From positions 5,580,001-5,644,000 of the forward strand of contig NZ_CP011125.1 of assembly GCF_000737325.1 (NCBI RefSeq): 64,000 bases of DNA, read 5' to 3'. The notes beneath the pieces were generated by a model, which was not told the DNA's origin, did not search any database, and saw nothing but the letters and a program-made list of their open reading frames with translations. This DNA comes from Sandaracinus amylolyticus. Lineage in GTDB: Bacteria > Myxococcota_A > Polyangia > Polyangiales > Sandaracinaceae. Position numbers and translations under genes: made by a program. Below, piece after piece: positions 23,668 to 63,720 of the stretch; the first letter of the stretch is position 1, and each line of letters begins with the position of its first letter.

Positions 23668-24246
23668 ATGACTTCGCGCTTCGTTCGCTCGCTGCTCGTC
23701 GCTCTCGCGCTCACTGCGCCCACGCTCCAAGGATGTGCCGCGAGCCACTCCACCGAGTCGCTCGAGGTCGAGGCGTCGATCGCGTCGGTGACGCTCGCGG
23801 AGGACTGTCCCGACGCGCAGCCGGCCGCACCGCGCGAGCCCGGGCTCATCGGTGACTGCGCCGAGGACGGGCCGTGTGGTTGGTGCACGCAGAGCAGCGT
23901 GCAGCTCGCGATCCGCGCCGGTGAGGGCGACGCGGCGGTGCCCTTCGAGGTCGTCTCGATCCGCCTGCGCACGCTCGACGGCGAGCTCGTCGACGAGCTC
24001 GAGCCGCGCGGCGCGCAGGTCTTCCTGGGCGAGACGTTCGGCGCGTGGGACGAGCGCATCGAGCCCGGCGCGGAGCTCGACGTCCGCTACGACACGAGCG
24101 CGCCCGACTGGAGCGCGATCGGCAGCGGTGAGGCGTACCGCTCGTACGGCGTGCAGCTCCGGATCGAGATGCGCGTGCGCATCGACGGCGTCGAGCGGAC
24201 GCTCGAGCTCGCGCCGGTGAGCCGGGAGCCCGAGATCGTCACCTGA
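23668..24246 (+). CDS. Lipoprotein of unknown function with CxxC
   Basis: The product is 192 aa. A type II signal ends at LQGC. The mature protein has paired Cys residues, including EDGPCGWCTQSS, and then a beta-sandwich-like C-terminal domain (VQLAIRAGEGDAAVPFEVVSIRLRT, GVQLRIEMRVRIDGVERTLEL). No family is recognised. GGAGGGG precedes ATG 23668. Its stop overlaps the next start by one base (TGATG), so it is co-translated with the di-haem cytochrome lipoprotein and may be its periplasmic or surface partner. Confidence 0.78.
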   Translation: MTSRFVRSLLVALALTAPTLQGCAASHSTESLEVEASIASVTLAEDCPDAQPAAPREPGLIGDCAEDGPCGWCTQSSVQLAIRAGEGDAAVPFEVVSIRLRTLDGELVDELEPRGAQVFLGETFGAWDERIEPGAELDVRYDTSAPDWSAIGSGEAYRSYGVQLRIEMRVRIDGVERTLELAPVSREPEIVT

Positions 24247-25565
24247 TGCGCGCATGGCTCGCGATCGCGCTCCTGATCGCCGCGTGTGACGCGCCGCGGG
24301 AGCCGATCGCGCCCTCCACGCCTCCGATCGATCCCTCGCTCGAGCCGTGGAGCGATGCGTGGCTCGACGCGCACGCGACGCGATACCTCGACGACGCGCG
24401 CGCGCGGCGCGATGCGCTCGAGGCCTCGCTCACGAACCCCGAGAACCTCTACTCGCAGACGCGGCTCGCGGCGTACGGACGCGAGCGCAGCGGGTGGGAC
24501 GTGCTGCCGGTGTGGAGCCCGCGCGTCCGTCGCATCGACGCCGAGGTCGCGGTGGCGATGGCGCGCGGCGAGACGCCGGCGATCGACGAGCGCGTCGCGC
24601 CGCTCTGGGCCGGCACGCGGCCGACGACGCACGACGCGTGGATCGCGCTCGGAGAGCGCGTGTTCTTCGAGCTGCCGCTGCGCACCGAGCCGTTCTGGGA
24701 TCGCGCGATCCGCGATGCCGAGCACGGCGCGAGCGTGGGCGTCGAGCGCGCGCCCGACGGCAGCGTGCCCGGGCTCGTGCTCACGCGCGACGTCGAGGGG
24801 CGCACGGGAGTCGGGATCACGTGCGCCCTCTGCCACAGCGCGCGCGACGCGAGCGGCGCGATCGTCGCAGGGCGCGCGCGGCGCACGCTGGACTACGGAC
24901 GCGTGCGCATCGACTTCTACGAGGCGCGCGGCGCGGCGATCGATCCGCACACGCGAGCGCGCTGGGAGAGCTGGGGCCCGGGTCGCGCCGACGTGCTCGA
25001 GGACGTCGCGGATCTGCCGATCGCGATCCCGGACCTCTGGGGCTTGCGTCATCAGCGGCTGCTCACGCAAGCGGGCACGCTGCGTCACGCGACGCCGCTC
25101 GCGCTCGCGATCCGTCAGGAGACGCAGTACGTGCAGGCGAACCACCATCGGACGCGCCCGCCGCGCGAGCTGATGTGGGCGCTCGTGGCGTACCTCGAGT
25201 CGCTCGAAGCGCCCGCCGCGCCGGCGTACGTGGGAGCGACGCGCGATCGCGAGCGCGGCGCGCTGGTGTTCGCGCGCGAGTGCGGTCGCTGCCACGCCAA
25301 CGCGGTGGGCAGCGGAGACCTCGTGCCGATCGACGAGATCGGAACCGACGCGGAGCTCGCGACGGGCCGCGCGCGAGGAACGGGTGGGTACCGCCCTGCC
25401 CCGCTGGTGCGCGTCGCCGACGCCGCGCCGTACCTCCACCACGGCGTGGTGCCGACGCTCGAGTCGCTGCTCGATCCCGCGCGCGAGGAGCCCGGACATC
25501 GCTTCGGGATGGAGCTCGACGACGACGAGCTCGGGCTGCTGATCGCGTACCTGCGTTCGCGCTGA
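24246..25565 (+). CDS. Di-haem cytochrome c lipoprotein
   Basis: The product is 439 aa. The lipobox LLIAAC has Cys14. Two haem-binding motifs are present, CALCH at 193-197 and CGRCH at 346-350, the second within a typical cytochrome c start (RGALVFARECGRCHANAVGSG reduced). The sequence PYLHHGVVPTLESLL near the end resembles the C-terminal region of di-haem peroxidase or thiol-oxidase-like proteins. It is coupled to the preceding lipoprotein (TGATG). It probably transfers electrons in the periplasm, anchored by lipid. The redox partner is unknown. Confidence 0.85.
   Translation: MRAWLAIALLIAACDAPREPIAPSTPPIDPSLEPWSDAWLDAHATRYLDDARARRDALEASLTNPENLYSQTRLAAYGRERSGWDVLPVWSPRVRRIDAEVAVAMARGETPAIDERVAPLWAGTRPTTHDAWIALGERVFFELPLRTEPFWDRAIRDAEHGASVGVERAPDGSVPGLVLTRDVEGRTGVGITCALCHSARDASGAIVAGRARRTLDYGRVRIDFYEARGAAIDPHTRARWESWGPGRADVLEDVADLPIAIPDLWGLRHQRLLTQAGTLRHATPLALAIRQETQYVQANHHRTRPPRELMWALVAYLESLEAPAAPAYVGATRDRERGALVFARECGRCHANAVGSGDLVPIDEIGTDAELATGRARGTGGYRPAPLVRVADAAPYLHHGVVPTLESLLDPAREEPGHRFGMELDDDELGLLIAYLRSR

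Positions 25566-30842: not shown

Positions 30843-30843
<1 letters not shown>
30472..30843 (-). CDS. Hypothetical protein coupled to metH
   Basis: The product is 123 aa. ATG 30843 overlaps the metH stop by one base (TGATG). The sequence is mostly beta, with segments such as RTFVIGGVIALPVGRRVEVTIF and GVVYGRSWHFQDEQAIRW, then a helix-strand region ending LACRVLSEGYSDPWQQTTLVV. No signal peptide, Cys pair or recognisable family is seen. Coupling to metH suggests a role linked to methionine synthase or simply shared expression. Confidence 0.72.
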
Positions 30844-34531
<3,688 letters not shown>

Positions 34532-34535
<4 letters not shown>

Positions 34536-35554
34536 CGGGGCGATCTCCGTGCAGCTCGAGAAGGACGGGAAACGGGCGACGACGTGGCCGGCGCGGGCTT
34601 GCGCGCGGACGCCGTGACGACCTGGAAGAAGGGCTCGCGTCGCTCGCGCGACGTGACGTCGCACGCGTCGACCTCGAGGCCGGCGGCGGCGATCATGGAC
34701 TCGAGGCGGCGCGGGCGGAACCCCGCGTGGACGTGGCCGTAGGAGGCGGTGAGCTCGGCGTGATCGTGCGCGTCGAGCACCAGCACCGAGAGCGTGCCGC
34801 AGGGGCGCAGGACGCGCGCGGCCTCCGCGAGCGCGCGCTTGGGGTCCTCCGCGCAGGTGAGCACGTGGAAGAAGAGGACGGCGTCGAACGAGGCGTCGTC
34901 GAAGGGCATCGTGTGCACGTCGCCGAGGACCGTGCGCACGTTCGCGAGCGACGCGAGGCGCGACGACGCAGCCTCGATCATGCGCGGGGATCGATCGAGG
35001 CACGTGACGCTCGCGGCGCGGGGCGCGACGAGCGACGCGACGGTGCCGTCTCCGCAGCCCGCGTCGAGCACGTCGCCCGCCTGTAGCATCGTCAGCACGC
35101 CGTGCGCCATCGACTCCCACGTGCGGCCCGGCGAGTAGTGGCGCTCCATGTGGCCCGCGACCGACTCGAGCCACGTGACGCCGCTCTTGCGACGCTTCAC
35201 GACCGAGTCGGCGCGGCGCGCGTCGGCCTCGAGCGTCGCGTCCTTCAGCTCGCCGCGCACGAGCGAGAGCACCTTGCGCGTGGGCTCGCTCATCCCGGCG
35301 TCGTTGAGCGAGTAGAACGCCGAGCTGCCCTCGCGACGGTCGCGCACGACGCCCGCTTCGCGGAGACGACCGAGGTGCGTGGAGACGCGCGACTGGGTGA
35401 CGCCGGTGATCTCGACGAGCTCGGCGACGGAGAGCTCCTGCGCGGCGCCGGTGGCGGCATCGCCGTCCGTGAGGTGGGCGAGGATCGACACCAGGCGCAC
35501 CCGCGTGGGGTCGCCCAGGAGGCCGAGCAGGTTCGTCGCCGCGCCGAGGTCCAT
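34532..35554 (-). CDS. ArsR-family regulator fused to a SAM methyltransferase domain
   Basis: The product is 340 aa. Residues 1-100 form an ArsR winged helix ([32 protein letters not shown]). Residues about 120-310 form a class I methyltransferase: [12 protein letters not shown] motif I, then [21 protein letters not shown] and a Ser/Arg-rich tail. It is coupled to metH by ATGA overlap. This domain pair is like the SahR group, which I recall senses S-adenosylhomocysteine to control the methionine cycle. The equivalent role here is inference. The start codon overlaps a 24-bp palindrome, so it is probably autoregulated. Confidence 0.88.
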
Positions 35555-35639: not shown

Positions 35640-38600
35640 TCAGGGCACCGGTCCGACTTCGACCACGCGCAGGCCGCCGACCGAGAGGAGCCCGACCGCG
35701 CTCCACACGCTCGCGGGCACGTAGCCGCTCGAGACGTGCACGTTGCCGTTGGTGGGATCGACCTCGCGGAAGCCGCGTCCGTCGTGGAACGCGACCCACG
35801 CGTGCGCGACCGCCTCCTGGCCGTCGATCGCGAAGCCCTCGCGGAGCTCCGCGGGGACACCGGCGGCGCGGAGCAGCGCGACCGAGAGGCGGCTCAGCTC
35901 GCTGCAGTCGCCGCGACCGCGCGCGAGCACGCTCGCCGCGTCGAGCTCCTCGGCGGTGAGCTCGTAGCGGATGTTCTCGTGCACCCACGCGACGACCGCG
36001 CGCGCCGCCTCCTCGGGGCGTGCGCCCGCGGGAACGATCTGCGCCGCGAGCGCGCGCACCCGCGGCGCGTCGCTCCCGTATCCACGCGTCAGCCGCGCGC
36101 GAGCGGCGTCGTCGATCGCGACGTCGCTGCCCTCGCTGGGCATCGGCGTGATCACGACCTCGAGGTGCCGTGGATCGATCACGCGGGTGCGCGAGCGCGC
36201 GCCGCGGACGAACACGCGCGCGGCGACCGCCTCGGGCTCGTCGCTCTCGAGCACGAGGCGCAGCGGTGCGCGCAGCTCGATGGGCTCGATCACGCGCGGC
36301 AGGCGCACGGCGTTGCGCGGGTTGCGCAGCACCTCGTCGATGATGTGCTCGCTGCCCTCGGCGCGGAGCGTCGGCTCGACGTGCGCGACGACGACGAGCT
36401 GACGGCGCCGCGTGTCGACGTGGCCGTCGAACGAGAGCTCGCGTCCGGCGCCGAGCAGCGCCGCGAACATCTGGAGCTGCGTGCGGCGCGGATCGCCCTC
36501 GGGCAGCGCACCGACGAGCCCGATCAGCGCGCGCGCGGCGCCGAGGCCGTCGAGGTGCCCGCTGCCGACCTGCACCTCGCCTCCGTGCGCCGGGAGCGGT
36601 CTCGCGAGCGCCGCGCGCACGTCGGCCTCGAGCGGACCGAGGACCCAGCGCGCGCCGCGACGCGCGAAGCGCACGCCCGCGTGCTCGAGCAGCGCGCCCT
36701 CCGCGGGCGGCGTGATCCCGCGCGCGGCCAGCGCACGATCGAGGCTCGCGCCCTCGGCGACGATCACCCAGCGATCCCAGAGCTCGCCGCCCGCGCGGGG
36801 CATCCACGCGAACGCGAGGCGCTCCGCGGCGTCGCTCGCGAGGCGCGCGGCTTCACCCGCGTCGCGCAGCGGAGGCCGCGGCTCGATCGGCGCGTCGACC
36901 TCACGGGCACGACGGCGCGGCGCGTCGTCCTCGGCGCCTGCGATCGCGAAGCGCGCGGTCGCGTCGGCGGGCAGCATCGCGACGAGCGCGCCGACGTCGC
37001 CCGGCGTGCCTGCGAACGGCGCGCGCATGCGCAGCACGAGACCGGTGCCCTCGACCGCGATCTCGAAGCTCGCGTCGGCGCGCTCGACGAGCGGCATCTC
37101 GCCGTCCGACTCGCCGCGCCATCCGACGCTCGCCATCTGCAGCGCGGCGCCGTCGGCCCAGTCCTCGGTGAGGCGCCGGAACGTGGGATCGCCCGCGAGC
37201 GTGCGCGCGATCGGCAGCGGGCCCGTGACGACGGCGCGCGCCATCTCCTCGAGGCCGAACACGATCATGCGATCGCCGGTGAAGAGGTAGTGCTCGGTGT
37301 CGACGCCCGAGCCCTCGTGCTCGCGGCGCACGAACGTCGCGAAGCGATCGAAGCGGACCCCGTCGAGCGAGACCTCGACGCGTGCGCGCTCCGCGAAGAG
37401 CAGCGCGCCTCCGTCGCGGCGGCCTCCGCCGCCTTCGCTCGAGTCCGCGGCGTCGGGATCGACGCGCAGCATGCGATCGAGCGCGAACGGCGTGGCGCCC
37501 GCGACCATCGGCAGCGTGCGCGCGAGGTTCGCCGCGTCGACCGCGAGCCACGGCGCGCTGTTCGTGCCCATGCGACGGCGCGCGAGGATCGCGCGGGCAC
37601 GATCCGCGTCGCGCACGTGCACCGAGCACACCCAGGAGCGCGGCCAGCGATCGGCCATCGCGCACTCGATCGGACGATCGAGATCGAGGCCGCCCTCGGG
37701 GCCGAGCAGCTCCGCCCCCGCGCGCTCCGCCATCCACGCGAAGGCAGCGCGCGCGACCGCGGCGTCGGTCGAGCCCGCGCTGTCGAGGCGCTCGTACGCG
37801 GACGTGAGCGTCGCGATCAGCAGCGACGGCTGGGGCACGCGCACGTAGCGCCAGTGCGTGCCGGGGAGGAAGCGCGCGAGCGGCTGGGTCGCGAGCAAGC
37901 GCGCGGCCTCGGGCGACACGCGCGAGCGCGCGCGCTGGGCGCGCAGCCACTCGGCGCGCGCGGCGAAGCGCTCGTCGAGCGACTCGATCGGAGCGCGCTC
38001 GAGCGCGGCGGCGTGGGACTCCGCGTGCCACTCGACGTTGCGCGCGGCCGCCTCGCCGTACGGCGCGTCCTCGGCGGAGAGGCCCTCGCGCGCGAGCGCG
38101 GCAATGCGCGTGAAGCGCTCGCGATCGCGCGGATCGAGGCCGCGCGAGAGCACCCACGCGGCGGTGCGCAGCAGCGCTCGCTGCTCGTCGTCGAGCGGCG
38201 CGCGCATCGCGTCGAGGCGCGTGCGGATCGCCTCGAGCTCGGCCGCGCTCGGGGCGTTCCAGTGCGCGTGCACGGCTTCGATCGCGAGCCCGGGATCGCC
38301 CGTCGTGACGATGCGCGCGAGCGCGTCGGGCGCGATCCCGCCGGGCAGCACCTGCTCCGCGACGAGCGCGAGCAACGCGAGCCGGCGATCCGTTCCGCCG
38401 ACGAGCTCGGTCGTCAGCGTGCGTCGCTCTTCGGTCGGCAGCGCGGCGAGCACCTCGACCGCGCCCAGCGGCGGCAGCGCGGTGTCGGCGCGCGACGCGA
38501 GGCCCGACGCGGCGACCGTCACCGGCGCGCGCACCACGGCGCATGCCGCGGCGAGAGCGCCCGCACGATCGGCGCTCATGAGAGCGCGGCCGCGCGCGTG

Positions 38601-41600
38601 AATGGCCGGATCGGGATCGAGCACCGCGGCGACGCCGAGCGCGCCGTGATCACCGGCTCCCTCGGGCACGCATGCGAGGAGGCGACGGCGTGCGCTCGGC
38701 TCGGGCGTCGCGAGGAGCAGGTCGCGCAGCAGCGCCGGCGCGAGCGCGGCGTCGATGCGACGTACTTCGTCGAGCTCGGCCGTGATCGTGCAGCCCTCGC
38801 CCGGCGCGAGCGCTGCGCGCAGCGCCCGGGCTCGCACACCGGGCGGCGCGGCGCCGCTCACCGCGCGCAGCGCCTCCGCCCATGCGGCGCCGACGAGCCC
38901 GTCCAGCGGCCGCATCGACGCCTCGGCGAGCGCGAACGTCGGCAGCAGCTGCGAGATCGTCGTGGTCGGGCCCGCGGCGATCGACACGACGAGCCGCGCG
39001 CCGCGGGGGACCACGCCGAGCACCATCACGTGCGTGCCGTTCGTCATCAGCGCTCGCGCGCCCGCGCCGATCGGCAGCGTGAGCGGCGCCGACCAAACGT
39101 GGCGGAACCCCGTCCGCTCGATCGCGGGCACGAGCGCGTCGAGGCACGTCTGCGGGGTGCAGTCGGACTGGCGCGGCTCGCTCACGACGACGATCCGCGC
39201 GCCGCCCTCGAGCGCGCCGCCCGCACCGCCGAGCGGCGCGAGCCACGACGGCAGCGTGACCTCGACGGCGTGCTGCACCGAGACGCGCCGCTCGAGACCG
39301 CGGAGGCGCGCGACCATCCGATCGACGTCGACGTCCGCGAGCGCGGCGTCGAAGGCCTCGGCGCTCGCGAGCATCGGCGGTAGCGCGGCCTCGGCCTCGG
39401 CGTCGCCCGAGAGCCGCGGATCGTCGGGGAATGCCTGGCGGCCGCGCGCACGCAGCGCGTCGAGCTCCGCGCGCCCGCGCATCGCGATCAGCGCCGGCGT
39501 GATCGTGACGACGTAGGTGCCGCGCACGCCTTCGCGCTCGACGATGCCGCCCCATCGCAGCGCGGCTTCGTGATCGCCGCGCCGCAGCGCGCGCACCATC
39601 GCCGCGTACGCGACGAGGATCGACTCGGGGTACGCGCCGACGAGCGCGTCGGTTCGATCGTCGAAGTCGTCGATGCGCGTCGCGTCGAACGCCATCAGTC
39701 CGTCGGGCGTCAAGCGGCCCGCGTCGAGATCGGCGTGGGCCCACGCGATCACGTCGCCCGCGGCGAACGCGCGCACCGCGCCCTCGTCCTGCGGGCGCGC
39801 GCGTGCGAACGCGGTCGCGGCATCGGCGTAGATCGAAGCCGCAGCCAGGCGCGCATCCCCGAGCGCCTGGAACGCGAGCTCGCTCCAGCTCGCCTCGCCG
39901 CTCGCGACGTACGACGCGCGCACGCTGGGCCCGCGCCACCGCAGCTGCGCGAGATCGTCGCGCGAGGTCTCGTCGACCACCCACCCGCGCGCCTGCGCCG
40001 CGAGCTCGACCGCGGCCGCGCGCTCGTGCTCGCCGCTTCGCGAGAGCCAGACCGAGTTGTTGTGGAGCAGCACGCTCGACGCGCGATCGCCCAGCGCGCG
40101 CGTCGCGGTGTCGAAGAACGCAGCAGGCGCGAGGCCCCGGGCCCGTGCGTGCTCCGTCGCTTCGAGCACCGCCCACGAGAGCGCCTGCGCGACGATCGGC
40201 TGACCGGGATCGGCGCGGAACGCGGGCCCGCACTCGTCGATGACGCGCGGCGCGAGCTCGCTCGTCGTCGTGAGCTCGTGGCAGAAGAGCGCGCGCACCG
40301 CGGAGCTCGTGCCCGCTCGCGCGGCGAGCGCATCGAAGACGTCGGGCGCCGTCTCGTCTCGCGCGTCGGCGACGATCAGGCGCCACGTCGTGGTGTCGTC
40401 GAGCGCACGACGCGCCGACGCGAGCAGCCGCAGCCGATCGTCGGCGAGCAGCGGTGCCTCCGTCTCGGTGTCGATCTCGGGATCGACCGGGCGATCCGCG
40501 ATCTCGAGGGCGCGCTCGGTCTCACCGAGCAGGACGTGCAAGCGCACCCGCGTCCGTCGCCACGCGCCAGGCCCGTCGGCCGCGCTCGTCGCGAACGGGA
40601 GCAGCTCGCGCGCCGACGCGATCGCGCTCGCCGCGTCCGGCGCGTCGACGATCGCACCGCGGATCAGCGCGCGCAGCCGATACGAGACGGCGAAGGTGCG
40701 CGTCAGCGCCGGGCCGCGCGCCCGCAGCGCCGCGACGTCGAGCTCGCCCGCGAGCGGTGGCTCGAGCACCGCTCTCAGCTGGTCGACGTCCGCGAGCGGA
40801 CCGTCGAACGCGAGATCGATCGCGCTCGGATCGACGCTCTCGAGCGCGGCGCGCGCGGCATCGAGCGGCACCGTGGGCTCACCGGCGCGCCATGCCGCGA
40901 GCCAGCGCCGCACGAGATCGCGCGACTCCGGCCACGTGACGAGCGCGCCCGCGTAGGCATCGCGCGCCTCCCCGGCGAGCGCCTCGAGCAGGCGACCGAG
41001 CGCGCTCCCGGGCAGTGCCGCGCGCACGCGCTCCACGATGCGCGCGAGATCCTCCGCGCGCCCCGCGCGCTCGAGCACGATCGCGGACAGCGCGGCCGCG
41101 TAGAGCGCGCTCGTATCACCGCGCTCGATCAGCGGCGCCAGCGCGTCGAGCACCTGCGCCTCGCGACCGGGCTCGTCGAAGTGCGTCTCGGCGATCGCCA
41201 GGCGCGACACGTTCGACGCGCCGAGCGCGACCTCCTCGCGCTCGTCGTCGATCGCGATCCGCTCGATGCGCTCGGCGGGCGACCCGAGGAGCAGCGCGCG
41301 CTCGAGCACGTCGCTGCCGACCTCGCGCCCCGCCGCGAGATCGTCGAGCCAGAGCGCGAGCACCGCGCGACGCGACCACGCCAGCACGCGCCCCGCGTCC
41401 TCGAGCACGCTCCGCGCGCCGGCGACGTCGCCTCCGCGCGCGAGCACGCGCACCCGCGCCTCCACGACGGCGGGATGCAGCGCGTGCCGCGACGACTCGA
41501 GCTCCGCGAGCCACGCCTGCACGAGCTCGCCGGCCTCGTCGTGATCGAAGAGCTCCGGGAGCGGCAGCAGCACCTCGTCGAGATCGCGCGGGCGGCGCGC

Positions 41601-43004
41601 GAGCTCCTCGTCGTCCGCCCAGCCGTCTCCGTCGACCCAGCGCTGTCGCTCGCTGCACTCGCCCCACGCGAGCCCGTCGCGCGCGCACTCGGCGAGCACG
41701 CGCGCAGCCGCGCGATCGAGCGCCCACATGCGACCGAGCGCGAGCGCGCGCAGCGACTCGTCGCCCGTCGAGTCCGCCGCGATCGACGCGGTGGCGTCGT
41801 AGTCGCCGACGCCGAGCTCGACCAACGTGCGCTGGGCGCGCGCCGCGCGCGCGAGGAGCGGCGGCGACGCGATCTCCGATCCTGCCCACTCCGCGATGCG
41901 GCGCTCGATCCACGGCGAGCGCGACACGCCCGCGTCGCGCTCCCACGCCTCGAGGCGCTCCGCGCTCGCCGTCACCACCGTCGCGAGCGCGGCGATCTCG
42001 TCGGCGAGCCGTCGCGCATCGTCGTCCCGCGCGAGCGTCCGCGCCTCGAGCGCGCGATCGTACGCGTCGCCCGCGAGGCCCTGCTCGAGGCAGCGCGCGG
42101 CGAGCGCGAGCTGGTGCGCGGCCGAGCTCGGCCTCGCGAGCGCGGCCTGCAGCAAGCGCGCGATCGCCACGCCGCGATGCCCCGGCGCCGCCGTGCCGAC
42201 CACGTCGATGGCCGCCTCGCGATCGCCCTCGCGCGCGACGAGCAGCGCCGCGGATGCCAGCGGATGCGCGCGATCGATCGACACCAGCGCGCGCGCGATC
42301 GCGAGCACCGCCTCGCCGTCCTCGCGCTCTCCCGCTTCATGCCAGCGTCGCTCGAGGACGACGAGCGCTCGCGCGCCCTCCCCCGCGATGCGATCGAGCG
42401 ACGGCCGCGTCGCGCCGCGCGGGACCGCACCGAGCCGCTCCACGTCGACGCGCGCGCTCTCGTCGAGCCCGTTCCACAGCGCGATCGGCACCGGGCGCAC
42501 GAGAGCCCCGCCCGCATCGGCGCGCAGCCGCAGCAGCCGCGCGACGACGTCGCGCGCGTCACCCGGCGCGTCTCGACCCACCACCGCGAGCGCGAGCCCG
42601 ACGTCACCGAGACGCTCGGCGCGCGCGAGCGCTTCGGCGCGCACCACGCTCCACACCCGACGCGCCTCCTCACGCGACGCCTCGGGCGCGAGCACCGTGC
42701 GCGCGCGCGCCACCGTGACCGCGCGCGTGGTCGCCTCGACCGCCGACGTCGCGTTCCCGGCGCGCTCCTCGAGCGCCGCGATCGCCCGCAGGCGCTCCAC
42801 CTCGCGCGCGGGATCGCCCGCGGGATCTCCCTCGACGTGACCGAGCGCGACGCGCGCCCGACGATCCGCCTCCGACCATCCGTGCGCGTCGAGCGGCGGC
42901 CTCCACGTCGCCGCCGCGCCGCAGCCGGACAGCAGCACGATGCACGAGAGCCACCAACCCGCGGCGCACGACACGCCTGGGCGCGACGACGAACCGATCG
43001 ACAC
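35640..43004 (-). CDS. Giant TPR-rich lipoprotein with C-terminal transglutaminase-like domain
   Basis: The product is 2,454 aa. GTG 43004 is chosen because GGAGG lies 6 nt upstream; ATG codons at 43061 and 43037 lack this. The signal peptide ends at lipobox VLLSGC. Residues about 40-1400 are Ala/Arg/Leu-rich helices in TPR-like pairs. A central region (about 1450-2250) of mixed alpha/beta resembles DUF3352-like protein. The last 130 residues are a transglutaminase-like/papain-fold domain with a full triad: Cys2367 (GDCSEL), His2401 (AHAWVAF) and Asp2416 (VDPTNG). It is probably a secreted, membrane-tethered protein-modifying or scaffold protein. The function is not described as far as I know. 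Confidence 0.85.
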   Translation of the reverse strand: MSIGSSSRPGVSCAAGWWLSCIVLLSGCGAAATWRPPLDAHGWSEADRRARVALGHVEGDPAGDPAREVERLRAIAALEERAGNATSAVEATTRAVTVARARTVLAPEASREEARRVWSVVRAEALARAERLGDVGLALAVVGRDAPGDARDVVARLLRLRADAGGALVRPVPIALWNGLDESARVDVERLGAVPRGATRPSLDRIAGEGARALVVLERRWHEAGEREDGEAVLAIARALVSIDRAHPLASAALLVAREGDREAAIDVVGTAAPGHRGVAIARLLQAALARPSSAAHQLALAARCLEQGLAGDAYDRALEARTLARDDDARRLADEIAALATVVTASAERLEAWERDAGVSRSPWIERRIAEWAGSEIASPPLLARAARAQRTLVELGVGDYDATASIAADSTGDESLRALALGRMWALDRAAARVLAECARDGLAWGECSERQRWVDGDGWADDEELARRPRDLDEVLLPLPELFDHDEAGELVQAWLAELESSRHALHPAVVEARVRVLARGGDVAGARSVLEDAGRVLAWSRRAVLALWLDDLAAGREVGSDVLERALLLGSPAERIERIAIDDEREEVALGASNVSRLAIAETHFDEPGREAQVLDALAPLIERGDTSALYAAALSAIVLERAGRAEDLARIVERVRAALPGSALGRLLEALAGEARDAYAGALVTWPESRDLVRRWLAAWRAGEPTVPLDAARAALESVDPSAIDLAFDGPLADVDQLRAVLEPPLAGELDVAALRARGPALTRTFAVSYRLRALIRGAIVDAPDAASAIASARELLPFATSAADGPGAWRRTRVRLHVLLGETERALEIADRPVDPEIDTETEAPLLADDRLRLLASARRALDDTTTWRLIVADARDETAPDVFDALAARAGTSSAVRALFCHELTTTSELAPRVIDECGPAFRADPGQPIVAQALSWAVLEATEHARARGLAPAAFFDTATRALGDRASSVLLHNNSVWLSRSGEHERAAAVELAAQARGWVVDETSRDDLAQLRWRGPSVRASYVASGEASWSELAFQALGDARLAAASIYADAATAFARARPQDEGAVRAFAAGDVIAWAHADLDAGRLTPDGLMAFDATRIDDFDDRTDALVGAYPESILVAYAAMVRALRRGDHEAALRWGGIVEREGVRGTYVVTITPALIAMRGRAELDALRARGRQAFPDDPRLSGDAEAEAALPPMLASAEAFDAALADVDVDRMVARLRGLERRVSVQHAVEVTLPSWLAPLGGAGGALEGGARIVVVSEPRQSDCTPQTCLDALVPAIERTGFRHVWSAPLTLPIGAGARALMTNGTHVMVLGVVPRGARLVVSIAAGPTTTISQLLPTFALAEASMRPLDGLVGAAWAEALRAVSGAAPPGVRARALRAALAPGEGCTITAELDEVRRIDAALAPALLRDLLLATPEPSARRRLLACVPEGAGDHGALGVAAVLDPDPAIHARGRALMSADRAGALAAACAVVRAPVTVAASGLASRADTALPPLGAVEVLAALPTEERRTLTTELVGGTDRRLALLALVAEQVLPGGIAPDALARIVTTGDPGLAIEAVHAHWNAPSAAELEAIRTRLDAMRAPLDDEQRALLRTAAWVLSRGLDPRDRERFTRIAALAREGLSAEDAPYGEAAARNVEWHAESHAAALERAPIESLDERFAARAEWLRAQRARSRVSPEAARLLATQPLARFLPGTHWRYVRVPQPSLLIATLTSAYERLDSAGSTDAAVARAAFAWMAERAGAELLGPEGGLDLDRPIECAMADRWPRSWVCSVHVRDADRARAILARRRMGTNSAPWLAVDAANLARTLPMVAGATPFALDRMLRVDPDAADSSEGGGGRRDGGALLFAERARVEVSLDGVRFDRFATFVRREHEGSGVDTEHYLFTGDRMIVFGLEEMARAVVTGPLPIARTLAGDPTFRRLTEDWADGAALQMASVGWRGESDGEMPLVERADASFEIAVEGTGLVLRMRAPFAGTPGDVGALVAMLPADATARFAIAGAEDDAPRRRAREVDAPIEPRPPLRDAGEAARLASDAAERLAFAWMPRAGGELWDRWVIVAEGASLDRALAARGITPPAEGALLEHAGVRFARRGARWVLGPLEADVRAALARPLPAHGGEVQVGSGHLDGLGAARALIGLVGALPEGDPRRTQLQMFAALLGAGRELSFDGHVDTRRRQLVVVAHVEPTLRAEGSEHIIDEVLRNPRNAVRLPRVIEPIELRAPLRLVLESDEPEAVAARVFVRGARSRTRVIDPRHLEVVITPMPSEGSDVAIDDAARARLTRGYGSDAPRVRALAAQIVPAGARPEEAARAVVAWVHENIRYELTAEELDAASVLARGRGDCSELSRLSVALLRAAGVPAELREGFAIDGQEAVAHAWVAFHDGRGFREVDPTNGNVHVSSGYVPASVWSAVGLLSVGGLRVVEVGPVP

Positions 43005-43067
43005 GCGACACCTCCCCGAGGAACGGCGCGCGAGCATGACCCCGCGCGCGCGTCCGCGCATCGAGGA

Positions 43068-43973
43068 TCAGATCACGACGCAGACCCGGTTCCGGCCCTG
43101 GTGCTTCGCCTGGTAGAGCGCGCGATCCGCGAGCACGACGAGCTCGCTCGGATCCTCGACCTTCGCCTGCGGCACCGCGGTCACACCGACGCTGACCGTC
43201 ACGGTGATGCGCACGCCGTCGTGCATGATCGGATAGCCCTCGATCGCCGTGCGCAATCGCTCCGCGAAGCGCGACGCACCGTCGAGTGGGATCCCGCGAG
43301 AGAGGATCCCGAACTCCTCGCCGCCGTAGCGCGAGAACACGTCCTCGGTGCGGATGATCCGCAGCACGTGGCGCGAGAGGCCCACGAGCACCGCGTCGCC
43401 CGCAGGATGTCCGTACGTGTCGTTGATCCGCTTGAAGTGGTCGACGTCGAAGAGCAGCAGCGAGAGCGGCGAGGCGTGGCGCTGCGCGTACGCGAGCTCG
43501 CTCTGCAGGCGATCGAGCAGGTACTTCCGGTTGTACGCGCGCGTCAGCGGATCGCGGAGCGCGGACTCGTACATGTGCCGCTGGAAGCTCTCCTCCAGGC
43601 GGTCGTGCACCGAGAAGCGCAGCACCGTCGTCGCGCCGACCTGGATCTTGTCGCCGTCCTGCAGCGCCTTGCGGCGCACCGCGGTGCCGTTGAGGAACGT
43701 GCCGTTCTTCGAGCCGAGATCCTCGACGAGGATGTCCTTGCCGAGCACCGCGATGCGCGCGTGCCGACGCGAGATCTCGTCGTCCATCACGCGGATGTCC
43801 GCGTCGGCGCCGCGCCCGATCACGAGCCCGCCGCCGACCGGGTACATCTCGCCGACGTTCGCGCCCGCGATCACCACGAGGTACGCGCGGTCGCGCTGCA
43901 GCGTCGCCTCGCTCACGAGCGCGCGCTGCCCGATGATCGTCACCTCGCCGGTCTCGTCGTCCTCGCGAGCCAC
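43068..43973 (-). CDS. FHA-GGDEF diguanylate cyclase
   Basis: The product is 301 aa from GTG 43973; TACGCT lies 10 nt upstream, with no ribosome site. FHA domain, about 47-120: VIGRGADAD, SRRHARI and GSKNGTFLNG, the phosphothreonine-binding features. GGDEF domain, about 135-300: DPLTRAYNRKYL, FDVDHFKRINDTYGHPAGD, active site GGEEF at 217-221 and inhibitory I-site RTED at 208-211. It should make cyclic di-GMP from GTP, with product inhibition and control by a phosphoprotein. A Ser/Thr kinase gene is at 20418, but a link is speculative. ATG 44066 would add 31 residues. Confidence 0.92.
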   Translation of the reverse strand: MAREDDETGEVTIIGQRALVSEATLQRDRAYLVVIAGANVGEMYPVGGGLVIGRGADADIRVMDDEISRRHARIAVLGKDILVEDLGSKNGTFLNGTAVRRKALQDGDKIQVGATTVLRFSVHDRLEESFQRHMYESALRDPLTRAYNRKYLLDRLQSELAYAQRHASPLSLLLFDVDHFKRINDTYGHPAGDAVLVGLSRHVLRIIRTEDVFSRYGGEEFGILSRGIPLDGASRFAERLRTAIEGYPIMHDGVRITVTVSVGVTAVPQAKVEDPSELVVLADRALYQAKHQGRNRVCVVI

Positions 43974-44087
43974 TGACGCGCCGAGCGTACAGCGGATGAC
44001 CCGCGGTCGAGAAGACGCTCGTTCGAGCCGCGGCGAGGCGTGACGGTACGCACCACGTCCGCGCACCGTCCCGCGAGCCGCGCGACC

Positions 44088-46358
44088 TCACTCCGTCGGC
44101 GCGCTCGCGGCGGCAGTCGTGAGCCCGAGCGCGTGCTCCACGAAGGCGTAGAGGCGCGTGTACCGGCTCACGAGATCCGACAGGCGCGTGCCCGCCCCGT
44201 GCCCCACGAGCTGCTCTCGGTAGAACCACACGCGCGGATCCGCCTCGCCGGTCGACTCCTGCAGGCGCGCCGCGAACTTCGTCGAGTGGCCCCAGTGGAC
44301 GCGCGTGTCGTGATCCGCGGTCTCGATCAGGATCGCGGGCAGTCGCACGCCCTCGCGCACGCGGTGGTACGGCGAGTACGCCACCAGCCACTGGAGCTGC
44401 GTCGCGTCGTCGCTCGAGCCGTACTCGCTGATCCAGAGCTCGGCCGGCGGGAAGCGGTGGTAGCGGACCATGTCGTACAGACCGACGTACGACGCCGCCG
44501 CCGCGAACGCGTCGGGCGCGCGCGTGATCATCGCGCCCATCAGCAGTCCGCCGTTCGATCCGCCGGTGATCGCGATGCGATCGGGGCGCGAGATCCCCGA
44601 GCTCGAGAGCCAGCGGATCACCGACTCCATGTCCTCGAAGACGCGCTCTTTGTTCGCGAGGTTGCCGGCACGGTGCCAGTCCTCGCCGAACTCGCCGCCA
44701 CCCCGCAGGTTCGCGACCGCGAACACGCCGCCGCGCGAGGCCCAGTAGAGCGGGCTGCGCTGGAAGCCGGGCAGCAGCGACACGTTGAACCCGCCATAGC
44801 CGTTGAGCAGCACGGGGCTCTCACCGTTGCGCTCGAGCCCACGACGGTGCAGCAGGTGCACGTTGATCGGCGTGCCGTCGCGCGAGGGCACGCGCTCCTG
44901 CGTGAGCTCGAGCTCCGAGAGATCGACCGGCACGTCGACCGCCGCGAGCTGCGTGAGCTGACGACCACGCGCGTTCCAGAGGTGCATCGCTGGCGCATGC
45001 ACGAAGCTCGAGAACCCGAGCACGAGACGTCCGGTCCGCGGATCGCCGTCGAGGCTCCCCACCTCACCGCGCCCCGGCAGCTCGATCTCGCCATCGGCGC
45101 GACCATCGAGGCGGAACACGCGCACCCGCGAGCGCACGTCGTCGATCACGTGCACCGCGATGCGATCGCCGGCGATCGTCCAGCTCTCGATCGCGCTGTC
45201 GCCCTGCGGGATCACGTCGCTCCACGCCGCGCGATCCGTCGCGCGCGCCGGATCGGCCACCACGATGCGGTAACGCGGCGCGTCCACGTTCGTCGTCAGG
45301 TAGAGCCGCCCGCCGTGCACGCGCCCCGACGTGAGGTGATCCTCCCCCGCGATCACCGTCACGAGCGCGTGCGCCTCGTCGGGACGGACGACTCGATTGG
45401 CACGCTGCGCGCCGCGATCGAGCAGATACACGTCCGACTGCGACCATCCGCGGAAATTGCCGATCACGACCCAGCGGTCGTCGTCGCTCACGGTCGCGTC
45501 CGGGAAGTCCGTGCCGTTCGGCGGCGAATAGACGAGCACGTCGTTCGCCGGGTCGTCGCCGAGACGATGGAAGAACAGGCGCGGGTGATAGCTGTCGGGC
45601 TGCGCTGCGTCGTAGTCGGGCTCGCCCTCACGCGGATATCGACGGTAATAGAAGCCGTCCTCGGAGTGCAGCCACGCGACGGTCGACCACTTCGCGTGCG
45701 CGATGACGTCGGGCTGCACCGTGCCCGTCGCGACCTCGACGACGCGCAGCGTGCTGCGCTCGTCGCCGTTCTCCGAGATGCCGAACGCGAGATGACGACC
45801 GTTCGGCGAGAGGTAGTACCAATCGAGCGCCGCGCGCTCTCCGTACGTCTGCGGATCGACGAGGATGCGCGCCTGCCCGACCGGCGCGCCGGTGCGCGAG
45901 AGCGACTGCACGAAGAGCGCAGGCTGCTCGCGATCCGCGTCGCGCCGCGCGTAGATCGCGACATCGCCGGCGATCGCGCCGCCCGAGATCGTCCCGATCG
46001 CGAGCACCTCGCGGATGCGCTCCGCCATGTCGGCGCGCGACCAAGACGCGAGCGCCTCGCGCGAGCGCGCCGTCTGACGCTCGATCCACTCGCGCGTGAT
46101 GTCGGAGTCCGACTCCAGCGCTCGATACGGATCCTGGATCGCGACGCCGTGGAGCGTGTCGGTGGTCTCGCCCGCTGCGCGCGCCCGCGCGTTGAGATCC
46201 TGCAGCCAGCTCATCGCGGGACGGCTCTCTTCTCCCGCGCTCGGCGCCGGCGCGGGTGTGCTCATGGACATCGACTCGCCGCCCCCGCACGCCGTGAAGG
46301 CGCCGAGGGCGACGGCGACGCTCGTGACACGAATCGATCGAGACGGGCAACGCGACAT
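44088..46358 (-). CDS. Prolyl oligopeptidase-family serine peptidase (lipoprotein)
   Basis: The product is 756 aa. The signal ends at FTACGGG, so it is a predicted lipoprotein. A seven-bladed-propeller-like domain covers about 120-480. The alpha/beta-hydrolase domain has catalytic Ser601 (GGSNGGLL), Asp near 684 (ETADHDTRV) and His720 (GHGAG). The motif YGGFNVSLLPGF and the propeller position fit S9A prolyl oligopeptidases. It should cleave short proline-containing peptides outside the cytoplasm, in contrast to the mostly cytoplasmic relatives. It follows the FAD protein by 39 bp and may share its transcript. Confidence 0.9.
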   Translation of the reverse strand: MSRCPSRSIRVTSVAVALGAFTACGGGESMSMSTPAPAPSAGEESRPAMSWLQDLNARARAAGETTDTLHGVAIQDPYRALESDSDITREWIERQTARSREALASWSRADMAERIREVLAIGTISGGAIAGDVAIYARRDADREQPALFVQSLSRTGAPVGQARILVDPQTYGERAALDWYYLSPNGRHLAFGISENGDERSTLRVVEVATGTVQPDVIAHAKWSTVAWLHSEDGFYYRRYPREGEPDYDAAQPDSYHPRLFFHRLGDDPANDVLVYSPPNGTDFPDATVSDDDRWVVIGNFRGWSQSDVYLLDRGAQRANRVVRPDEAHALVTVIAGEDHLTSGRVHGGRLYLTTNVDAPRYRIVVADPARATDRAAWSDVIPQGDSAIESWTIAGDRIAVHVIDDVRSRVRVFRLDGRADGEIELPGRGEVGSLDGDPRTGRLVLGFSSFVHAPAMHLWNARGRQLTQLAAVDVPVDLSELELTQERVPSRDGTPINVHLLHRRGLERNGESPVLLNGYGGFNVSLLPGFQRSPLYWASRGGVFAVANLRGGGEFGEDWHRAGNLANKERVFEDMESVIRWLSSSGISRPDRIAITGGSNGGLLMGAMITRAPDAFAAAASYVGLYDMVRYHRFPPAELWISEYGSSDDATQLQWLVAYSPYHRVREGVRLPAILIETADHDTRVHWGHSTKFAARLQESTGEADPRVWFYREQLVGHGAGTRLSDLVSRYTRLYAFVEHALGLTTAAASAPTE

Positions 46359-55304: not shown

Positions 55305-58300
55305 TCAGGGGGCCACGCAGGACGTGAAATTCGACGTCGCGCCGGAGAGCGCGACGGTGCCGCCGAGCGGATTCTGCGACTGGACGTACGACACCACGCT
55401 GCTCGGCGTCGTGGAGCCGAGCCCCACGATCCCGAAGCGGTCGCCCGCCTCGAGGCGCAGCGAGAAGCCGGTGCCGCCGCGGTTCCCCGACATCTGCGCG
55501 CACACCGTGCTGAGCCCGCTCGCGGCGGTGCCCGATTGCACACGCACGCCCGCGACACCGCTGCTCGGCATCGTGAGCGTGTTGTCGCGCAGCACGAGCG
55601 CGAGCGTGCCGTCGACCTCGACCGAGCGCAGCCACACCGCGTAGCCGCTCGTGCCCGAGATCGAGTTGTTCTCGATCACGACGCGCGCATACGGCATCTC
55701 GATCGCCGGATCGAGATCGTCGCCGAGCGCGATCGTGAGCCCGTTCGCGCCGAGGTCGGTGCCGACCGTCGTCATCGTGTTGGCGCGCACGACGACGTCG
55801 TCGGCGCGCGCGGTGCCGAGGAGCTCGACGCGCACCGCGGTGAACGTGACGTTCGAGACCGTGTTGCCCTCGAACGTGAGGCTCGAGATGGTCCCGGCCG
55901 CGTTCACGATCGCGAGCGCGCTCGTGCTCGCGTTGCGCAGCTCGCAGCCTCGCACGACGACCGCGCCGCTCAGCATCGTCGGGCTCGCGACGGTCGCGTC
56001 GTCGAAGTCGAGCGCGGTCGCGGTGCCGGTCACGCGCATGCCCTCGAGCGTGATCCCGTCGACGACCACGCCGCGCACGCCGCTGGCGGTGGGAGCGTTC
56101 GCGATCGCGAGCGACCGGAGCGTCACGTTGCGCGCGTTGGTGAGGAGCACGCCGTCGGACGTGGTGCTCTGGATCGTGCCGCCCGATCCGTTGTTCGCGC
56201 CGGTCCCGTCGCCGACGATCGAGAACGAGCCCGTGTTGTTGGTGACGACGATGCCGTTCGGTCCGCCGGTCGCGCTCACCGCGCGCAGCGCGATCGTGCC
56301 GCCGACGTTCGTGAGGTGCACCGCCTCCGCGCCGCTCGCGGTCACCGACACGAGCGCGACGTCGACGCCACTGGCGCCGCTCGCGACGAGACCGCGCGAC
56401 GACGACGAGACCACGACGTCGATGCCGCGCACGTACACGCTCGTCCCGAGCGTCAGCGTGCCCATCCGCGGCGCGACCGCCGACACCGCCGGGAACGCGC
56501 GCGCGTAGGTCGCGGGCGCGAACCCGAGGTGCGCCGTCGTGACGGCGATACCCTGGCCCAGCAGGCGGACGCCTGCGCCGAGCGTGTACGCCGAGTACGC
56601 CGCACCGCTGCCCGCGACGTGCACGACGTCGCCGCTCGACGTCGCGGGGAGCTCGCCGAAGTTGCGCACCGGCCGCACGCGCGTCCCGCTGCCGCCCGCC
56701 GCCGCGCTCGCGTCGACGAACCACACGCGGTTCTGGATGCCGAGCGAGACCGTCGCGACCACCGACGCCGCGGCGTTGGTGATCGTGTACGCGAACGCGT
56801 CGTTCGCGATCGCGCCCGCGGGCGGCTCGTACACGAACGTTCCGTCGGACTGCAGCACGACACGGCCGCCGAGCATCGTCGTGAGCGGCGCGCCGACCGC
56901 GGTGGTCGAGGCCGCGACCGAGCTCGGGCCGTAGCCCGTGATCGTCGCGCCGTTCAGCGTGTCGTTCGCGAGCACGCTGCCCGCGAGCGGCACGTCGATC
57001 GGCACGTTGCCGGTCACCCCGTACGCGTCGTTCGTCACCGTCGGCGGCGAGACCGGCGCGACGACCGTCATCGAGAACGTGATCGTCGCGGCGGTGCCGA
57101 CGCCGTTCTGCGCGCGCACCACGACGTTCGCGTAGGTGCCCGCCGTGGTCGGCGTGCCCGAGATGCGGCGCGTCGCCGAGTCGAGCGCGAGCCCGGGCGG
57201 GAGCGTGCCGGAGATGACGGCGAGCGTCGGCGCGGGGTGGCCCGAGACCGTGAACGTGTGCGAGTACGCGGTGCCGACGGTGAGCGATCCCGGCGGCGTG
57301 CCGGCGATCGACGCCGCTTCGTTCACGGTGAGCGTGAAGCTCTGCGCCGCGACGTTGCCGAGACCGTCGCTCGCGGTGAACGTCAGCGGGTACGTGCCGC
57401 CGGTGCCCGCCGCCGGCGTGCCGCTCAGCGTGCGCGTCGCCGCGTCGTAGACGACTCCCGTCGGCAGCGTGCCGGCGAGCGCGACCGTGGGCGCGGGGAA
57501 GCCCGTCGCGGTGGCGGTGAACGTGCCGGCGGTGCCGACCGTGAAGGTCGTCGCGCTCGCCGACGTGATCGCCGGCGGCTGTCGCACCGTGACCGTGACC
57601 GAGAGCGTCGCGTCCGCGCCGACGCCGTTCGTCGCGGTGACCGTGACCGGATACGTGCCTCCGGTGCCCGCCGCGGGCGTGCCCTGGATCCGGCGCGCCG
57701 CCGCGTCCAGCGCGAGGCCGCTCGGAAGCGAGCCAGTCAGCGCGAGCGTGGGAATCGGATATCCCGCGCCCGTGAACGCATACGTGCCATTCGTGCCGAC
57801 GGTGAACGTCGCAGTCGCCGCGCCGCTCAGCGCGGGTGCTTCGCGGATCGTCAGCGTGAACGACTGCGTGGCGACGGTGCCGACTCCGTTGCTCGCGGTG
57901 AACGTGAGCGCGTAGGTCCCGCCGGTGCCGGGCGCGGGCGTGCCGCCGAGCGTGCGCGTCGCGGGATCGAACACGACGCCGGTGGGCAGCGCGCCCGCGA
58001 TCGAGACCGTCGGCCTCGGCGTGCCGATCACGGCGACCGCGAACGACCCCGGCGTGCCGACGGTGAACGTCGTCGCGTCGGGCGAGCCGATCACGGGCGA
58101 CTCGCGCACGTCGATCGTGACGTCGAGCGCCACGTCGGGACCCACGCCGTTGCTCGCGATGATCGAGACGGGATAGGTGCCGGCCGAGCCCTCGGCGGGC
58201 GTGCCCGAGATCGTCCGGGCGGTCGCGTCGAACACGAGGCCGATCGGGAGCACATTCGAGAGCATCGCAGTCGGCGCGGGATATCCGGACATCGAGAACG

Positions 58301-62442: not shown

Positions 62443-63720
62443 TCAGGGCCCGGCACCGCCTCCGAGGCCCTGCTGCTCGAGCTGGCGACGGATCTGCTCC
62501 ATCACCTCGGGCGGGAGCTGCGCGCCGCCACCTTCACCGCCCGGCATCGGCATCGGCATGCCCTCGCCGGGCGCGCCCTCGCCTTCGCCCGGCGGGGTCG
62601 CGGGCGCGCTCTCCGTGAACGACGTCGCAGTCGGGCTCACGCGCTCGCCGAGGAACCGGCTGATCACGTAGATCGTCGGCTCGCCCTCGCGCTGCGCGTA
62701 GAAGTCGTGCCGCTCCGCGTTCGCCTCGTTGCCGAGGATCACGGTGAACGTCTGCGGGCCCTCGTCGCCCTCGCCGCGCGTCGTGAGCGTCACGCGCGCC
62801 GCATCGGGGCCGAGCCCCGCGCTCTCGGGCGTCACGTCGGGCCCTGCGAAGTCGGCCGCGCGCATGCGCGCGAGGCTCGCGACCATGCTGCGCACCTTGC
62901 TCGCCTGGAAGCCCTCGATCGCCGTGAGCGGCGCCGGCGCGGCGGGCTCGGGCGGAGGACGACGTCCGGCCGGCGGCGTCTCGGGCGCCGCGGGCGCCGG
63001 CGGGACGTACGAGATCTCCGCCTGCCGCCACTCGCCGAGCGTGGGCTGCGCGGGGGCCTCACCCTCGCCCTCCGGCGCGGCGGGCGCCGCGGCGGGCGCG
63101 CGATCGAAGCGGAACGTGCCGTTCGGCCCGCGCCACGCGACCTCGGTCACGTCGTCGGCCTCGACGTTCAGGATCGCGCGGTCACGCCAGTCGCGCAGCT
63201 CCTTGTTGAACGCGAACTTGATCGAGCCGCGCACCGAGACGACGCGCTCCTCGCCCTCGAGCCGCACCATCGTGTTGCCCGAGCGGTACGCGCCGATCCA
63301 GAGGTCCGCGAGCGCGTTCCCGTCCGCGCCGCGCGCGACCACGCGCACGCCGTGCGCGGGATCGACCTCGAGGCGCTCGTGGAACTCGGGGTTCGACGCC
63401 GCGACGCCCGCGACCTCCATCTCGTCGAGCTTGTCGAGCGCCGTCGAGACCGCGCTCTGATCCGCGATGACCTCGATCGGCTGCGTGACGAACCACTGCT
63501 CTTCGCGGCGCTCGAGGCGGATCGTCTGACCCTCCGCCTCGGGCCGCGTGATCTCGATCACCGAGATCTGATCGCGCGACAGATCCGGGAACCCGCGCGC
63601 CTGCTGCGTCTCGCGCACCGGCGTGTCCCCGGTGCGCACGCCCCACGCCCAGATCGCGAGACCGCCGACTGCGATCAGCAGAAGGCCCGCGATGGGCAGC
63701 CTGTTCTTGTGCCAGTCCAT
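62443..63720 (-). CDS. DUF4340 membrane-anchored protein
   Basis: The product is 425 aa. A single N-terminal anchor (RLPIAGLLLIAVGGLAIWAWGV) precedes the DUF4340 region: ISVIEITRPEAEGQTIRLERREEQWFVTQP, and later DLWIGAYRSGNTMVRLEGEERVVSV. A Pro/Ala-rich insertion lies at about 205-275, and the tail ends with MPMPMPGGEGGG and QLEQQGLGGGAGP. Proteins of this family follow GldG-type genes in ABC-transporter clusters linked to gliding or export. The GldG-like gene ends 12 bp upstream, as expected. Confidence 0.85.
   Translation of the reverse strand: MDWHKNRLPIAGLLLIAVGGLAIWAWGVRTGDTPVRETQQARGFPDLSRDQISVIEITRPEAEGQTIRLERREEQWFVTQPIEVIADQSAVSTALDKLDEMEVAGVAASNPEFHERLEVDPAHGVRVVARGADGNALADLWIGAYRSGNTMVRLEGEERVVSVRGSIKFAFNKELRDWRDRAILNVEADDVTEVAWRGPNGTFRFDRAPAAAPAAPEGEGEAPAQPTLGEWRQAEISYVPPAPAAPETPPAGRRPPPEPAAPAPLTAIEGFQASKVRSMVASLARMRAADFAGPDVTPESAGLGPDAARVTLTTRGEGDEGPQTFTVILGNEANAERHDFYAQREGEPTIYVISRFLGERVSPTATSFTESAPATPPGEGEGAPGEGMPMPMPGGEGGGAQLPPEVMEQIRRQLEQQGLGGGAGP

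Follow-up and report, generated by a model that had tools for sequence, protein, structure and literature searches.

Enzymes of the transglutaminase (TG) fold are common in bacteria, and the substrates of few of them are known. The best profile match of the family described here among solved structures is TgpA of Pseudomonas aeruginosa (6g49 and 6g4h), whose periplasmic domain, according to PMC3507681, incorporated amine into CBZ-Gln-Gly in vitro and was insensitive to EDTA. A different kind of envelope system, LbcA-CtpA, is also found in P. aeruginosa: LbcA is a TPR spiral of the outer membrane and has been proposed to wrap substrates for the hydrolase CtpA (PMC8764530).

In the present study, a soil bacterium's gene for a lipobox-bearing protein with both a long TPR-type scaffold and a TG module was analyzed within a window of 64,000 nucleotides, corresponding to positions 5,580,001-5,644,000 of a single 10,327,335-base contig. 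The TG superfamily and the logic of TPR lipoproteins are already known; the combined layout is the new part. A first-pass annotation of this DNA had named no described family of this layout, and the whole layout was found in no Pfam or NCBIfam family, nor was a paper combining these parts found in open-licence PMC text. The TG-like domains described in PMC7159879 and PMC8195603 belong, as presented in those reports, to conflict systems of a different layout.

Gene and domain layout

The minus-strand open reading frame is genuine, as annotated, according to its frame composition—with a third-position G+C of 0.92 overall and of 0.87-0.95 in each 200-codon block—and to a GTG start with a ribosome-binding-like site. 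The GTG at 43002-43004 yields the 2,454-residue product, a single chain of ~267 kDa, and the longest open reading frame begins at 43061 (2,473 residues). Relatives were compared in an alignment of 20 rows, comprising 18 fetched regions, L001, and the window; 18 rows bear the TG domain and two are TG-less paralogues. Contig ends truncate the TG-bearing rows L043, L047, and L001; the 2,498-residue frame of L042 is included, and the sequences from G217 (last 155 residues only) and G109 (contig equal in length to L001) were left out. Identity to the window protein is 86% for the copy in the sister genome (L037) and 25-35% in the 16 more distant TG-bearing rows. The features of the gene are listed below.

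35640..43004 (-): whole gene, 2,454 residues, GTG start (open reading frame, frame composition, collinear relatives)
43011..43017 (-): predicted ribosome-binding-like site GGGGAGG, with a 6-base spacer to the GTG
42921..43004 (-): predicted signal peptide and lipobox, with Cys28 as the mature N-terminus (Cys in 16 of the 16 rows that reach the column)
39324..42923 (-): TPR-type solenoid, residues 28-1227, with Cys pairs 440/450 and 908/925 (model, profile and fold matches)
38898..39242 (-): DcrB/PsbP/Eag-fold domain, residues 1255-1369, with Cys pair 1282/1287 (model and fold search)
37995..38852 (-): ARM/HEAT-like helical repeats, residues ~1385-1670, with Cys pair 1405/1445 (model and fold search)
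36378..37865 (-): alpha/beta region, residues ~1714-2209, with Cys pair 1781/1793 (model, conserved columns, dN/dS)
35643..36353 (-): TgpA-like module, a strand-rich lead-in plus Transglut_core, residues ~2218-2454 (Pfam, profile, fold)
35904..35906 (-): predicted catalytic Cys2367 codon (18 of 18 TG-bearing rows)
35802..35804 (-): predicted catalytic His2401 codon (18 of 18 TG-bearing rows)
35757..35759 (-): predicted catalytic Asp2416 codon (18 of 18 TG-bearing rows)

The gene is, as judged from sequence comparison with the sister copy, under purifying selection, with an overall dN/dS of 0.25. By segment, the values are 0.32 for the TPR half, 0.11 for residues 1704-2240 covering the alpha/beta region, and 0.09 for the TG part, the lowest value among these segments; the alpha/beta region is nearly as constrained.

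The assignment as a lipoprotein holds, given the lipobox LLSGC and its conserved Cys. Residue +2 after this Cys is Asp or Lys in none of the 16 rows, and Ala occupies position +7 in two of them (L039 and L052). For Myxococcus xanthus, PMC3222651 reports that 8 of the 12 lipoproteins assigned putatively to the inner membrane have Lys at +2 and that +7 Ala is a sorting mark of extracellular-matrix lipoproteins. Thus, on the M. xanthus pattern, the +2 residues point to the outer membrane, on which the window protein is most likely anchored. The family has five Cys pairs, and the partners of each are conserved or lost together, which fits disulfides in an oxidizing compartment. Pairs 440/450 (18/18 rows), 908/925 (17/17), and 1781/1793 (20/20, the TG-less paralogues included) are invariant, and pairs 1282/1287 and 1405/1445, each present in 17 of 19 rows, are jointly absent in the two paralogues. 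Taken together with the lipobox, the conserved Cys pairs suggest an exported protein. The eight strongest 19-residue hydropathy windows do not exceed 1.71, and one of these is the signal peptide.

Two structure models were computed, for residues 28-1227 (pLDDT 85.9, pTM 0.85) and 1255-2454 (pLDDT 83.8, pTM 0.80), leaving residues 1228-1254 outside both. The first of these models is entirely helical. Pfam sees no TPR in the window sequence itself; at the level of the family, TPR_19 matches 6 of the 18 members scanned, and the family profile of this half matches solved structures of designed TPR proteins (best E = 3.3e-41) as well as the TPRs of O-GlcNAc transferase (1e-12). The fold matches listed for this half include IFT-A subunits, Ski3, and LbcA, which are long TPR proteins. 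The designation "TPR-like half" of the first-pass annotation is thereby upheld for the family; where that annotation gave ~1,300 residues of helical repeats, the repeats comprise ~1,200 residues (28-1227) and, in addition, a second helical stretch at ~1385-1670. The second stretch was matched to designed armadillo proteins and importin at Z 10-12, a range that any helical repeat may reach.

The protein resembles LbcA in being a lipid-anchored TPR spiral, which in P. aeruginosa serves an envelope hydrolase (PMC8764530). The window protein has both the lipobox and the TPR spiral that mark LbcA, with no claim of membership in the LbcA family, as the TPR match is generic. LbcA matched the family profile at E = 7.2e-6 over a stretch of only 59 positions, and its fold match (Z 9.2, rmsd 21.3, 309 aligned residues) is one of 50 listed within Z 2.2 of one another, in the range of any helical repeat; the stretch common to both proteins is short and the resemblance generic. 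LbcA and CtpA are, moreover, two proteins, with a Ser-Lys-Gln protease, whereas the window protein is one chain with a Cys-His-Asp site in a TG fold.

Between the two helical stretches, residues 1255-1369 matched the folds of EagT6 (Z 13.5, rmsd 2.2, 109 aligned residues), PA94 (Z 13.0), SciW (Z 12.8), and DcrB (Z 11.4). This segment gave no Pfam match at E 10 in the window protein and none at 0.01 across the 20 members. The alpha/beta region carries a conserved motif, GGLDLxRPIECA, which includes the Cys pair common to all 20 rows. No enzyme family in Pfam was matched by the sequence of the central region, either in the window protein or in the 20 members, so the refuting outcome named in the first-pass annotation, a known enzyme family in this place, was not found; the fold of this region was barely probed, since the other parts filled the matches listed for the 1,200-residue C-terminal model. 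When the alpha/beta region was compared with itself by hhalign for internal duplication, the probabilities came to 1.8 and 4.2% (E 0.027 and 0.0098). DUF3352 (PF11832), considered as a look-alike of the alpha/beta region, was set aside: the window protein gave no Pfam match to it, and a whole-genome search with PF11832 found two places only, both under the cut-off and outside the window gene.

The C-terminal module was matched by Transglut_core (PF01841; E = 2.4e-17, 63.6 bits against a gathering cut-off of 23) and by Transglut_core3 (29.7 bits, cut-off 26); nothing else was found in the window protein by Pfam, and NCBIfam gave no match. PF01841 at E ≤0.01 and Transglut_core3 (PF13471) each match 18 of the 20 family members. 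The Cys2367-His2401-Asp2416 triad lies where it was annotated and is degenerate in none of the 18 TG-bearing rows, 17 of which were also aligned in a second comparison. Among the C-terminal fold matches listed, 3isr has Z 14.6 (187 aligned residues), and TgpA (6g4h) has Z 12.0 (rmsd 3.6, 188 aligned residues, 26% identity). The family profile matches TgpA (6g49) at E = 4.3e-11 over a region reaching upstream of the TG core, with the window sequence alone giving 6e-4. Thus, the likeness to TgpA comprises a homologous Transglut_core, the order Cys-His-Asp, the upstream lead-in, and an envelope location. The two differ in anchoring, with TgpA attached at the inner membrane (PMC10318531) and the window protein bearing a lipobox; in DUF3488, which TgpA carries (PMC3507681) and to which neither the window protein nor the 20 members gave a match; and in length, the repeats and domains of the window protein adding ~2,200 residues.

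Other TG-fold proteins were also compared. The nearest TG domains among those searched (E 5e-21 to 7e-27 with the TG profile of the family) are those of shorter proteins of the phylum (L029-L032 and L036, 514-731 residues), whose length leaves no room for the TPR and ARM/HEAT-like parts; two of these (L030 and L032), read by eye, combine a lipobox-like start with a TG core. The NCBIfam model of lasso-peptide B2 leader peptidases (NF033537) matches 16 of the 20 family members (best E = 7.3e-9), in contrast to the window protein itself, which has no NCBIfam match; these matches could be a trap for misannotation. LapG/BTLCP (PF06035) was matched neither by the window protein nor by the 20 members at E 0.01.

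Distribution of the family and its TG-less paralogues

Using the C-terminal 754 residues as the query, matches at E 1e-12 or better were found in 23 of 289 genomes of the window's class, its own included. Nineteen of these contain the full-layout family, 15 as full-length frames (~2,300-2,700 residues, from 2,301 upward) and four cut by contig ends (G062, G108, G109, and G217); the remaining genomes, G004, G023, G027, and G279, have a shorter TG protein only. These class-wide holder counts are lower bounds, because few candidates per genome were scored, and fuller scoring of one bacterial family returned the same 11 of 29 genomes as before. Within the window's order, 5 of 183 genomes match at E 1e-30. 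Across the phylum (377 genomes), full-length members were found within the class only; the 11 matching genomes outside it have just the TG part, in frames of 275-560 residues. A search of a plasmid collection gave no match, and a pattern scan of genome contigs with a single-protein query, a type of scan that reaches close relatives only, returned L001 as the sole match. Overall, the search for homologues of the full architecture revealed collinear relatives in which repeats, triad, and lipobox are kept together. In a tree of TG domains, drawn without support values, the family rows cluster. The exceptions are L116, which represents the gene of L038 again, and an L114 fragment that was taken for an artefact.

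The window's genome and its sister each have a second copy of ~2,500 residues that ends ahead of the TG domain:

L049:6565-14154 (-): TG-less paralogue in the window's genome
L048:5034-12503 (+): TG-less paralogue in the sister genome

Their overall identity to the window protein is 38-39%, consisting of 39-40% in the TPR part, 36-37% in the ARM/HEAT-like part, and 42-44% in the alpha/beta region. The DcrB-like stretch is only 17-20% identical, a longer, poorly alignable segment taking its place. A genome search had shown the L049 match continuing beyond its TGA; profile search in six frames detected no TG domain in either 20-kb locus, and reading of the stretch after the TGA of L049 showed none either. 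Thus, the scaffold can be retained without the enzyme and has some use of its own, and the loss of two Cys pairs together with the divergence of the DcrB-like stretch indicates that the paralogues may have changed function.

Lysine content, neighboring genes, and possible function

The window protein contains no lysine in its 2,454 residues, and lysine is scarce in the sampled lipoproteins of its genome, as called by a simple lipobox rule with crude gene calls in 20 sampled regions: 0.17% in lipoproteins versus 1.86% in other proteins (29 and 181 genes; ratio 0.09; p 3.5e-9). A similar depletion was observed in the sister genome (0.38 vs 1.82%; 9 and 58 genes; p 0.0017) and in G184, another genome of that bacterial family, although the search did not find the protein there (0.34 vs 2.51%; 5 and 42 genes; p 0.0091). 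G141, which holds the protein, leans the same way (0.38 vs 1.72%; 4 lipoproteins; p 0.097). No depletion was seen in G130 (3.17 vs 1.90%; 7 and 67 genes; p 0.26) or G115 (5.77 vs 3.31%; 10 and 61 genes; p 0.0069), two genomes of the class, similar in G+C, in which the family was not found, or at the loci of more distant holders (2.60 vs 2.30%; 3 lipoproteins; p 0.97). The sample contained one lipoprotein from G248 and none from G216, G234, G188, or G102. Relatives of the protein from other genera have up to 67 lysine residues. Since the trait is present in G184, the lysine poverty is not caused by the window protein. A lysine-free sequence as a guard against self-cross-linking was considered and rejected, because the TG-less paralogues, with 2 and 3 Lys, are nearly as lysine-poor and because G184 shows the trait. 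An Ig-repeat protein encoded at 55305-60071 in the window also has no lysine, in 1,588 residues.

Upstream of the TG gene, an FHA-GGDEF diguanylate cyclase gene (43068-44066, minus strand) ends 63 bases before it, preceded on the same strand by a prolyl oligopeptidase gene (44088-46358); downstream lie an ArsR-methyltransferase gene (34532-35554) and metH (30843-34580). This order is kept in 1 of the 18 fetched loci, that of the sister genome, which is also the one locus with the FHA-GGDEF neighbor; L038 also has, at its edge and ~5.7 kb away from the gene, a metH fragment of 100 residues. Control by c-di-GMP of the LapG type, suggested by the FHA-GGDEF gene, was therefore rejected, given the occurrence of this neighbor in a single locus and the lack of a PF06035 match. 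At the other loci, shared neighbors belong mostly to members of one genus. Two neighboring genes recur at L046, L047, and L054; their L054 copies code for a mechanosensitive channel and a DUF481 protein. One cluster of neighbor genes spans five loci, the three scanned members all being protein kinases. Overall, no partner gene conserved beyond a genus names the substrate.

The first-pass annotation had envisaged a surface cross-linking or peptide-cleaving enzyme with its own substrate-binding scaffold. Triad, lipobox, and the long helical scaffold in collinear relatives sustain the anatomical part of that proposal, and its cross-linking branch is weakened: lysine is the usual acceptor, yet it is nearly absent from the lipoproteins sampled in the genus and absent from the window protein, so protein cross-linking is less likely. 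The reading that we prefer, tentatively and with somewhat less than even confidence, is an exported, envelope-anchored thiol amidase or peptidase with its own substrate-capture scaffold, which would place the logic of LbcA-CtpA in one chain. From the computed anatomy, collinear conservation, intact triad, Cys pairs, and lipobox, we infer substrate capture, catalysis, a reaction type, and a membrane face along the following lines. The N-terminal lipid would tie the protein to the membrane, and the ~1,200-residue TPR superhelix, aided by the DcrB-like and ARM/HEAT-like parts, would capture a protein or peptidoglycan-linked partner. The TgpA-like module could then attack a peptide or glutamine amide bond via Cys2367, activated by His2401 and with Asp2416 as the orienting residue. 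The acyl-enzyme would most likely be resolved not by protein lysine but by water, as in a peptidase or amidase, or by an amine that is small or not part of a protein; the lysine-poor self lipoproteins make us lean, with modest confidence, to hydrolysis or a non-protein amine.

One counterweight to a peptidase is that TgpA is a reported transglutaminase; its amine incorporation would favor transglutaminase chemistry here. Also weighing against the preferred reading are the strong constraint on the alpha/beta region, for which that reading does not account, and the generic nature of the LbcA fold match. A true transglutaminase would join Gln to amines; it might cross-link proteins of the envelope or of prey, or attach polyamines, diaminopimelate, or amino sugars. 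We consider this alternative rather unlikely: it draws on the in vitro activity reported for TgpA (PMC3507681) and on a TG domain above the PF01841 cut-off, and it is opposed by the few self acceptors in the genus, although non-protein amines and foreign proteins may serve as acceptors and the relatives of other genera contain lysine. The catalytic domain as the core of the family is called into question by the TG-less paralogues, in which the TPR, ARM/HEAT-like, and alpha/beta parts persist, and a scaffold or receptor could be primary, with the TPR and alpha/beta parts doing the main work and the TG domain a losable accessory. The 39-44% identity of the TPR and alpha/beta parts in L048 and L049, and the GGLDLxRPIECA Cys pair shared with them, agree with this idea; we nevertheless judge it distinctly unlikely, as 18 of the 20 rows retain TG with an intact triad in the most constrained segment compared, and the paralogues, with two Cys pairs gone and the DcrB-like stretch diverged, may differ in function. 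An enzyme of predation or competition, acting from the surface on other cells, would suit the inferred myxobacterial lineage and the patchy distribution (19/289 class genomes, 11/29 in one bacterial family). It appears quite improbable in view of the Pfam scan of 15 other window genes, in which no toxin-immunity or secretion-system family was found, the neighborhood that is not conserved beyond a genus, and the +7 Ala sorting mark, as reported for M. xanthus (PMC3222651), in only 2 of 16 rows.

The preferred reading, that of a thiol amidase or peptidase with a built-in scaffold, may be extended to a one-chain adaptor-plus-protease in which the TPR/ARM superhelix captures envelope proteins and feeds them to its own TG-fold Cys site. 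This would be a machine of Polyangia-type myxobacteria, so far undescribed, for quality control or cell-wall regulation, with the alpha/beta region as a new domain. This extension is speculative, and we would hold it somewhat unlikely; if true, it would add a further route, beside NlpI-Prc and LbcA-CtpA, to a substrate-selective envelope hydrolase. Since the putative enzyme carries a large scaffold of its own, the TPR half, used as bait in a pull-down, could identify the substrate directly, and a strongly conserved alpha/beta region without a match in the libraries tried adds interest to the family.

Several minor observations were made along the way. Two other giant proteins, L128 (G141:C101) and L127 (G188:C290), have open frames of ~2,450-2,490 residues and were not matched to the window protein by BLAST at E 0.001; L128 has a sacsin-type domain near the N-terminus (PF25794, E 3e-11) and a C-terminal Transglut_core (E 1.8e-5). 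Within the window, a tRNA-Arg (gcg) called by ARAGORN at 13130-13222 (+) lies inside an opposite-strand HlyD-type membrane-fusion gene (12445-13980) and is probably false. A protein with weak cytochrome-c matches (RoxA-like, PF21419) is encoded at 24246-25565 (+), and a DUF4340 protein at 62443-63720 (-).
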